From positions 1 to 54,591 of the forward strand of contig JAPUDV010000065.1 in NCBI GenBank assembly GCA_027492875.1: a stretch of DNA of 54,591 nt, given 5' to 3'. The notes under the pieces are model-generated. The model ran no database searches, had not been told where the DNA came from, and saw only the letters and a list, made by a program, of their open reading frames with translations. Shown here piece by piece: positions 31,341 through 34,298 of the stretch. This stretch comes from Candidatus Competibacteraceae bacterium (GTDB lineage: Bacteria > Pseudomonadota > Gammaproteobacteria > Competibacterales > Competibacteraceae). How positions within the stretch are numbered: position 1 is the first letter of the stretch; every line of letters starts with the position of its first letter. Position numbers and translations under genes: made by a program.

Positions 31341-31811
31341 CTATAGCTCCTTGGCCATCACCAGCGCGTCCTCCCGACGCCCGCTGGCGGCGGGATAGTA
31401 GTCCGGCCGCAGGCCGATTTCGCAGAAGTTCGCGGCGGTGTAAAGCCGCACGGCGGCGGTGTTGGTGGGGCGGACCTCCAGGAAGACGGTTTGTACCTCG
31501 GCGGCGCGGGCCAGTTCGAGCAGGTGGTCCAGCATGTGCCGCGACAGCCCGCGTCCGCGCAGTTCCGGCCGCACGCAAAGGTTAAGGATATGGGCTTCAT
31601 CGGCCGCCGCCGACATCACGCCGTAGGCCTGGATGAAGCCGTGTGGGGTTTCCAATACCTGGCAGTGGTAACCGACCCGGATGCAGTCGCGGAAGATGCC
31701 CTCGGTCCAGGAGAATTCGTAGGCGCGTTTCTCGATCGCTATCACTTCCCGGAGGTCGGCGTAAAGCATTCGTCGAAACCGGCCGATCCGGGGTTCCCGT
31801 AACGCACTCAT
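31341..31811 (-). CDS. rimI: Ribosomal-protein-alanine N-acetyltransferase RimI
   Basis: A 156-residue GNAT acetyltransferase that acetylates the N-terminal alanine of ribosomal protein S18. The family order is present: a first strand and helix with IEKRAYEFSWTEGIF, ILNLCVRPELRGRGLS (acetyl-CoA pyrophosphate loop RGRGLS), LEVRPTNTAAVRLY and FCEIGLRPDYYP. The start overlaps the uracil-DNA glycosylase stop in ATGA, so the two are coupled. In E. coli rimI follows holD; here the glycosylase takes that place. Confidence 0.93.
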   Translation of the reverse strand: MSALREPRIGRFRRMLYADLREVIAIEKRAYEFSWTEGIFRDCIRVGYHCQVLETPHGFIQAYGVMSAAADEAHILNLCVRPELRGRGLSRHMLDHLLELARAAEVQTVFLEVRPTNTAAVRLYTAANFCEIGLRPDYYPAASGRREDALVMAKEL

Positions 31812-32752
31812 GAATCGGCGGGCCTCCGAACCGGCTCGCCCAGGATAGCCGAGGCGCGCCGCGCCAGCCGCAGGTCGTCCCAGACCTTGCGTTTCTCGCG
31901 CGGCGAGCGCAGCAAATAAGCGGGGTGGTAGGTGGCCACCAGCGGAATTTGCGCCGATCCGAAGCGGTGAACCCGGCCGCGCAGCTTGCCGATCTGGGTG
32001 TCGGTGTCCAGCAGGTTCTGGGCGGCGATGCGGCCCACCGCAAGGATGATGCGCGGTCGGATCAGTTCGATCTGTCGTTCCAGGAACGGCCGGCAGAGAC
32101 TGGCCTCGGCGGGCGCCGGGTCGCGGTTTTCCGGCGGCCGGCATTTCAGAATATTGGCGATATAGACCTGCTCGCGTTTCAGGCCGATCGCCAACAGCAT
32201 CGGATTGAGCAGTTTGCCGGCCCGACCGACGAACGGCTCGCCAAGCCGGTCCTCGTCGGCGCCGGGCGCCTCGCCGATCACCAGCCAGTCGGCCTCGTGG
32301 TTGCCGACCCCGAACACGGCCTGGGTGCGGGTGGCGCACAGGCCGCAGGCGGTGCATTGCCGGGCTTCCGCCGCGAGCTCCTCCCAATCCATCCGGGCGA
32401 TGCGCGCTTCGCGGCGGGCGGCGGGCGGAGTGGCGGCATCATCGGCGGCGGTTTCGAAGACCGGTTCCCAATAATCGTCCGTCGTGGGCGGCGTCCAGTC
32501 GTCAGGGGGCAAGGATTCGAAGTCCTCCGCATCCCCCCTGGCCATCGGCTGAGGCTGATCCCGAGCGCTCTGCATCTTGGCAAAGGAGGGGGCAGCGGGA
32601 GGGTTGGGCGCTTCCGCGCGCGCGTCCAAACGCTCCGGCGCGGGTGAGAGCGAGGGGTCCGCCGGTTGCGGATGCACGGCCAGCGGCCGACGCGGCAGCC
32701 ACAGCGGAATGCCCAGCGCGGCCAGGTACTCGCGCTGGCGGTCGCCGGTCAC
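31808..32752 (-). CDS. Family 4 uracil-DNA glycosylase with a HolD-like N-terminus
   Basis: A 314-residue Fe-S uracil-DNA glycosylase, GTG start. The catalytic core starts near 120; cluster cysteines are likely C136, C139, C204 and C220. The uracil-pocket motif [20 protein letters not shown] and the late [11 protein letters not shown] block are intact. It removes uracil from DNA. The first 115 residues are an extension: residues 8-23 read [16 protein letters not shown], which aligns with the chi-binding start of E. coli HolD (psi) in the pattern LGI-x2-W-x2-RRP, followed by a long proline/alanine linker. The gene sits where holD lies relative to rimI. Confidence 0.9.
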
Positions 32753-32762
32753 GGTCGTCTGC

Positions 32763-34298
32763 TCACAGCAGTTGCGGATGCGCCCGCTCGGCCGGTTGCA
32801 ACATCTTGTTGAGCGCGTTGATATACGCCTTGGCCGAGGCGATCACGATGTCGGTGTCGGCGCCCTGGCCGTTGACGATCCGACCGCCCTTGGAGACTCG
32901 CACCGTCACTTCACCCTGCGAATCGGTGCCGCTGGTGATGTTGTTGACCGAGTACAGCAGCAGGTCGGTGCCGGTCTGCAAAATGCTTTCGATCGCCTTG
33001 AACGAGGCGTCGACCGGGCCGCCGCCGTCCGCGGTCGCGCAGCGTTCCTGTCCGTCCACCGCCAGAGTCACCTGGGCGTTCGGGGTTTCGCCGGTTTCCG
33101 AACAGACCCGCAGATAGAGGAGTTTCACCCGCTCATTTTCCGCCGTCAGATAAGCGTCGGTGACCAGCGCCTGCAAGTCTTCGTCATACACCTCATGCTT
33201 TTTATCGGCCAGCTCCTTGAAGCGGGCGAAGGCATCGTTCAATTCTTCCTCGGTGGCGAAACTGACGCCCAGTTCCTCCAGTCGGGTGCGGAAGGCGTTG
33301 CGGCCCGAGTGCTTGCCCATGACCATGCGGTTGGCGCTCCAGCCGACATCCTCGGCGCGCATGATCTCGTAGGTTTCTCGGTGCTTGAGCACGCCGTCCT
33401 GATGAATGCCGGATTCGTGGGCGAAAGCGTTGGCGCCGACGATGGCCTTGTTCGGCTGCACCGGAAAGCCGGTGATGTTGGCCACCAGCCGCGAGGCCGG
33501 TACGATCTGGGTGGTGTCGATGCCGGTTTCCAGTTGGAACACGTCGTGGCGGGTGCGCACCGTCATCACGATCTCTTCCAGCGAAGCATTGCCGGCCCGC
33601 TCGCCCAGGCCGTTGATGGTGCATTCCACCTGGCGCGCGCCGGCCAGCACTGCCGCTAGCGAATTGGCCACCGCCAATCCCAGGTCGTTGTGACAATGCA
33701 CCGAGAAAATCGCCTTGTCGGCGTTGGGCACCCGTTCGATCAAACTGCGAATGGTGTGGGCAAACTGGTCGGGAACATTGTAGCCGACCGTGTCGGGAAT
33801 ATTGATGGTGCGGGCGCCGGCGTCGATCACCGCCTCGGTGATCCGGCACAGAAAATCGAGTTCCGAACGACCGGCGTCCTCGGCGGAGAATTCCACGTCG
33901 TCGGTCCAGCGCCGGGCGCGGCGCACCGCCTCGACCGCCCGTTCCACCACCTGATCCGGTTCCATGCGCAGCTTCATCTGCATATGGATTGGCGAGGTGG
34001 CGATGAAGGTGTGGATACGGCCTGCCGCCGCCTCTTTCAACGCCTCACCGGCCCGGTCGATGTCGGCATCGGCGGCGCGCGCCAGGCCGCAGACCACGCT
34101 GTCCTTGACCGCCCGCGCCACTGCGCGCACCGCTTCGAAATCACCAGGGCTGGCGATGGGGAAACCGGCTTCGATCACGTCCACCCGCATCCGCTCCAGC
34201 ATCTTGGCGATGCGAACCTTTTCTTCCTTGGTCATGGACGCGCCGGGGCTCTGCTCGCCGTCGCGCAGGGTGGTATCGAAGATAATCAGCTTGTTCAT
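32763..34298 (-). CDS. leuA: 2-isopropylmalate synthase
   Basis: First committed step of leucine synthesis: condensation of acetyl-CoA with 2-ketoisovalerate. The 511-residue product has [12 protein letters not shown] at the start, the metal-binding [10 protein letters not shown] block, NGLGERAGN, and the C-terminal LeuA regulatory domain (from about 390) that mediates leucine feedback. It is ten bases upstream of the glycosylase gene. In relatives it usually follows pssA closely; here the glgX-treZ-treY block and a strand switch separate them. Confidence 0.97.

Follow-up and report, generated by a model that had tools for sequence, protein, structure and literature searches.

A rimI-linked family-4 uracil-DNA glycosylase with a psi-type clamp-loader peptide, and the homology of its core to that of HolD (psi)

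In many bacteria chi is found without a detectable psi, which has been stated as an open question (PMC3290774, PMC3197488). The window analysed here, the whole stretch of 54,591 nucleotides of contig JAPUDV010000065.1 from a Candidatus Competibacteraceae bacterium, raises the related question of what a uracil-DNA glycosylase (UDG) is doing at the position where Escherichia coli encodes psi (HolD). The UDG gene (31808..32752, minus strand), whose limits the original prediction had placed correctly, begins with GTG and encodes 314 aa. Its stop codon overlaps the start of rimI (31341..31811, minus strand; TIGR01575, E 2.4e-32) in the sequence ATGA, through which the two genes are predicted to be translationally coupled, and in E. 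coli K-12 holD likewise overlaps rimI, so that the neighbour gene is the same. The proposed coupling to rimI at the holD position is thus upheld. Upstream of the UDG gene, and given for context only, lies leuA (2-isopropylmalate synthase; 32763..34298, minus strand).

Judged by its residues and fold, the product is an intact family-4 UDG. The protein matches TIGR00758 (UDG_fam4) over residues 133-295 with an E value of 1e-66 (223.9 bits against a cut-off of 125.3) and PF03167 with an E value of 7e-39, and the core, residues ~110-303 (31844..32425, minus strand), contains all four Fe-S cysteines (C133, C136, C204 and C220). All five active-site positions are also kept (E161, E167, F174, N200 and H276); the corresponding active-site positions of Thermus thermophilus UDGA are E41, E47, F54, N80 and H155. 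With these residues intact the enzyme is predicted to be competent in uracil excision. The predicted model superimposes on T. thermophilus UDG (1ui0) with a Z score of 28.9 over 186 residues at 1.6 A. Core, cysteines, active site and fold are common to the window UDG and the family-4 enzymes of T. thermophilus (1ui0), Thermotoga maritima (1l9g) and Sulfolobus tokodaii (4zbx). The window protein differs from these in having a psi-type peptide, borne on a long linker, and in being encoded at the holD position before rimI; the three chains lack the N-terminal tail, since their residues 1-4 align at model residue ~119-122 and the alignment runs onward from there. E. coli psi is absent among the 50 best PDB entries listed for the UDG model, which is not counter-evidence to a relationship because UDGs fill that list. 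Searches of the window genome detected no other UDG with PF03167 and no Ung with TIGR00628, leaving the window UDG as the sole UDG-superfamily protein detected there. Elsewhere the gene has some unusual forms. One rimI-linked UDG (L158:1530-3377, plus strand) is split in frame by an intein within the UDG core, ~350 residues containing LAGLIDADG_2 together with the N- and C-terminal splicing domains; a 715-aa open frame in another genome (G018 C100:840-2933) has its UDG halves set apart, probably by an intein as well, and in a Ca. Competibacter phosphatis record (L031/L054) the UDG occupies two overlapping frames, reflecting a frameshift or an assembly error.

The additional N-terminal part consists of a psi-type clamp-loader peptide, residues ~1-25 (32678..32752, minus strand), and a low-complexity, flexible linker, residues ~26-109 (32426..32677, minus strand), which corresponds to poorly conserved columns of alignment A2. 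In the predicted model residues 3-12 form a helix, the linker is disordered and the core begins at residue 110; linker pLDDT is mostly 48-60 up to residue ~100 and climbs to 70 at 101-110. The flexible linker expected ahead of the core is therefore present, with residues 21-100 disordered in the model. Residues 5-22 align with the E. coli HolD (L118) segment RRDWQLQQLGITQWSLRRP. Related loci number ~100, nearly all of them rimI-linked, and the consensus of 78 non-redundant UDG N-termini (<75% identical) is roughly R-R-x-x-Y-L-x-A-[ML]-G-I-x-x-W-x-x-R. The L of YL is conserved in 78/78, W in 74/78, R in 70/78 and G in 70/78, figures that are partly circular for the columns in which the motif search pattern demanded [GD] and [WYF], a circularity that does not affect the profile searches or the remaining columns. 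The window UDG matches the clamp-loader peptide pattern L-x-x-[ML]-G-I-x-x-W-x-x-R.

Profile searches relate this peptide to psi. When a profile of 44 26-mers was compared with 177,635 distinct PDB sequences, psi N-terminal peptides ranked first and second (3gli_O, E 0.029, then 9oyg_J), both from clamp-loader entries. DNA_III_psi was the second commonest Pfam match of the UDGs among 24,736 models, found in 33/65 members of alignment A2 with matches accepted up to E 10 (best 0.0014), and the next family was found in 4. PF03603 gave 82 matches over 369 genomes in which only the N-terminal part of the model was aligned; at least 67 of them were assigned, by coordinates or sequence, to UDG N-termini, and direct comparison of HolD with UDG N-termini by hhalign gave 98.7% (E 2.4e-16). 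The data indicate that a ~25-residue psi-type peptide is conserved across gamma- and beta-proteobacterial UDGs encoded just before rimI, as the psi-type motif noted in the original prediction had suggested for this gene; a mere chance resemblance to psi was rejected, given the profile statistics.

The likeness to psi extends beyond the peptide. HolD sequences from 18 genomes and from E. coli (19 sequences, A3), stripped of the N-terminal peptide, were compared with the UDG core, giving an hhalign probability of 98.4% (E 5.7e-15) over 126 columns. The value was 93.5% (E 2.3e-7) when the five most UDG-like HolDs were left out; this is the more conservative figure because 5/19 of the HolDs in the profile are UDG-like. 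Reversed and shuffled controls gave 0.1-0.2%, and the HolD core scored 97.9% against UDGs without a psi peptide, compared with 0.1% against HolC and 0.4% against RimI as controls. The 19-sequence HolD profile, 5/19 of whose members are UDG-like, ranked the rimI-linked UDG first in 20/20 genomes having psi-peptide UDGs, the window genome among them. Single proteins connect the two families. L130, a HolD above the PF03603 cut-off, matches both PF03603 (9e-6) and PF03167 (0.0016), and its predicted structure retrieves family-4 UDGs at PDB ranks 1-3 and E. coli psi at ranks 4-6 (Z 10.8 to 1ui1 over 125 residues; Z 7.7 to 3sxu_B); L195 matches PF03603 (7e-4) and Arch_udg (1e-5), and the last 70 residues of L131 match the UDG profile (E 5e-11). 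These comparisons indicate that the whole psi core, and not the peptide alone, is homologous to family-4 UDG. It could be argued that the N-terminal segment is a chance or independently acquired amphipathic helix with some other partner, and that HolD is unrelated. A tail of some kind does seem to be general, as an N-terminal helix, though one lacking the psi signature, occurs in alpha- and zeta-type UDGs too; peptide and core, however, are supported independently by profile statistics, the pre-rimI locus is shared, and L130 and L195 each match both families, so that we consider convergence extremely improbable. The alpha-/zeta-type family-4 UDGs (L159-L172) have no rimI adjoining; their conserved helix, [YF]L.E.GV, is connected through a long linker and is possibly an older form of the psi-type tail.

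It should be emphasized that the window gene is not itself a recognizable holD. Pfam scans gave no PF03603 match to the protein, nor was there one anywhere in the window genome; with no match above the cut-off, the gene is therefore best filed as a UDG homologous to psi, and not as HolD. A separate holD, the presence of which would have spoken for an independent psi, was found neither by PF03603 nor by the 19-sequence HolD profile, whose matches in the window genome at E <= 1 comprised only the two halves of the UDG gene: profile positions 4-31 match the peptide (32657-32740; E 0.019 genome-wide) and positions 54-136 match the core (31856-32218; E 4.3e-8 genome-wide). HolD (PF03603; E. coli structures 1em8 and 3sxu, and the 3gli peptide) shares with the window UDG the N-terminal peptide, the pre-rimI locus and the core, but it is a shorter protein (137 aa in E. 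coli), and most catalytic residues are missing from it, as are the Fe-S cysteines. A further form is the Pseudomonas-like, rimI-linked psi of ~280 aa (G449 and G453; family of G198 and G445), the core of which scores 91.9% against HolD and, taken alone, only weakly (9.8%) against the UDG core. Four proteins (L201, L207, L214 and L215), which lie before rimI and have the psi motif RRRAYLGAMQVASWLPR, likely correspond to the pseudomonad psi PA4679 (278 aa; Jarvis 2005). Pseudomonad psi is longer and, like the window UDG, has an extended unstructured N-terminal region, but UDG residues are not recognizable in it.

At this one locus the proteins form a graded series. It starts with intact UDGs (all nine residues are present in 84 of the aligned sequences), and these are followed by psi-peptide UDGs with broken active sites (L144, L145, L153-L155, L156 and L179), most of which adjoin rimI, then by short proteins that keep fragments of UDG motifs (L195, L131, L130 and L127), and finally by E. 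coli-type HolD. When losses of catalysis are mapped on the core tree by parsimony there are four, two of which are forced by well-supported branches; the tree supports no more than the statement that there were at least two. Most of the broken UDGs L144, L153-L155, L156 and L179 keep the four cluster cysteines (3/4 in L144), which suggests that the Fe-S cluster may outlive catalysis as a scaffold. Evolution from UDG to psi is the likely direction, because distantly related bacteria and archaea have family-4 UDGs (1ui0, 1l9g, 4zbx) and HolD is confined to some gamma lineages. The reverse order, in which psi came first and UDGs at the locus later gained its peptide, gains some room from the tree of UDG cores and degenerate copies, which has long branches, does not place HolD firmly and is not stable enough for the event to be rooted on it directly. 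That order is nevertheless hard to reconcile with the distribution just described, and HolD cores hold fragments of UDG motifs that would be unexpected in a psi of other origin; we regard it as very unlikely. Of the two routes that the original prediction had offered, a psi function taken over by the glycosylase agrees with these data and a psi fused to it does not, as the homology of the cores points to psi being derived from UDG.

The distribution of the two proteins across genomes bears on what the UDG may be doing at this position. A separate match to the rimI-UDG profile was found in 0/16 genomes with full-length HolD and in ~285/353 others (Fisher p 1.6e-11); HolD and the psi-peptide UDG are mutually exclusive. 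Ung was present in 34/39 genomes with HolD or a dead copy compared with 2/41 genomes with an intact psi-peptide UDG (p 9e-15, a genome-level value inflated by shared ancestry, with the intact group drawn from the best-scoring UDGs), and counted by family the figures are 17/20 and 2/30 (p 2e-8). This pattern fits a hand-over in which the rimI-linked protein keeps its active site as long as it is the cell's UDG and, once Ung is present, is free to become psi only. In one large genome (G677) the rimI-linked UDG (L179) has a broken motif 1 and no Ung was found by TIGR00628; a second UDG-like domain that ends a longer open reading frame (L188) may do the repair there.

To which component would the peptide bind? 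Psi attaches by its N-terminus to the collar, domain III, of the DnaX (tau/gamma) subunits (PMC3290774, PMC3197488, PMC12871192), and the segment is needed for binding to the minimal clamp loader (PMC3197488). The peptide of the window UDG is predicted, by homology, to bind the DnaX collar, because the psi N-terminus sits on DnaX domain III and the best PDB matches are clamp-loader psi peptides. The original prediction had instead taken chi (HolC) as the partner of the HolD N-terminus, at odds with these published data, and had the glycosylase docking on chi through its peptide. Chi is indeed encoded in the window genome (locus L001), and HolC occurs in 311/369 genomes, most of the class; the psi segment that matches the peptide, however, is the one in the clamp-loader entries 3gli_O and 9oyg_J, and the first 26 residues of psi are disordered in crystals of the chi-psi complex (PMC3197488), which makes docking of the peptide on chi most improbable. 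Contact between chi and another part of the UDG is a separate matter. HolC residues W57 and F64, which are reported to be essential for HolD binding and also for binding YoaA (PMC11981726), are kept in the window HolC and conserved in 22/22 HolC proteins from both kinds of genome. This conservation would agree with a contact between UDG and chi without being specific evidence of one, because the same residues bind YoaA. The few HolC-negative genomes examined are mixed, with the peptide kept in one (L242), no peptide in a second (L240) and a degraded form in a third (L241), and the link between UDG and chi is not strict, as at least one of them keeps the peptide. The arrangement resembles that of YoaA and chi, in which a repair enzyme is tied to the replisome via a clamp-loader accessory subunit (PMC11981726), but YoaA is a helicase and binds chi, whereas the predicted anchor of the window UDG is DnaX.

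We consider it probable that the gene encodes a replisome-tethered UDG that also occupies the position of psi, and that HolD arose from such a UDG through loss of catalysis. Like its counterpart in E. coli psi, the N-terminal peptide would dock on the DnaX collar, and the long flexible linker would carry the UDG core, thereby holding a family-4, Fe-S enzyme at the replication fork, where it would excise uracil incorporated or formed nearby. The window UDG would stand in psi's place and probably also contact chi; less certainly, its core may bridge to chi and SSB and so act as psi and repair enzyme at once. HolD, which has the same pre-rimI locus and peptide, would descend from such a UDG by reduction of the core and loss of the active site once the cell had Ung. 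From the comparisons above we infer that the protein docks on DnaX and contacts chi, that it repairs DNA at the fork, and in which order the changes took place; in this sense the original proposal that repair is coupled to the replication fork is, we judge, right.

It could be argued that the UDG docks on the DnaX collar simply as repair cargo, without being psi or holding chi, and that the partner of chi in such bacteria is YoaA or, by direct binding, tau. The intact catalytic and Fe-S residues, the need for a repair role where Ung is absent, the peptide of the HolC-negative L242 and a conservation of chi W57/F64 explicable by YoaA would all be in keeping with a tether alone. The mutual exclusion of HolD and psi-peptide UDG, in contrast, speaks against mere cargo; HolD is homologous over the whole core, so that the role of psi was plausibly filled in the common ancestor already, and the HolD-profile search found no other psi in the window genome. 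A tether alone is thus possible but rather doubtful, and a UDG that also serves as psi is the reading we prefer.

We found no report of a link between psi and UDG in the open-access literature, although one of Pfam clans, ECOD and SCOP may already group the folds. We lean towards the view that in chi-containing beta- and most gamma-proteobacteria the place of the missing psi is taken by an active UDG built into the Pol III clamp loader, of which E. coli psi is a leftover pseudoenzyme. If this is true, a gene routinely annotated as 'uracil-DNA glycosylase' is predicted to encode a replisome subunit, and both the origin of psi and the occurrence of chi without detectable psi would be explained. 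A base-excision enzyme would then sit inside the bacterial clamp loader, E. coli psi would be recast as a pseudoenzyme, and uracil removal would be a standing activity of the replisome.
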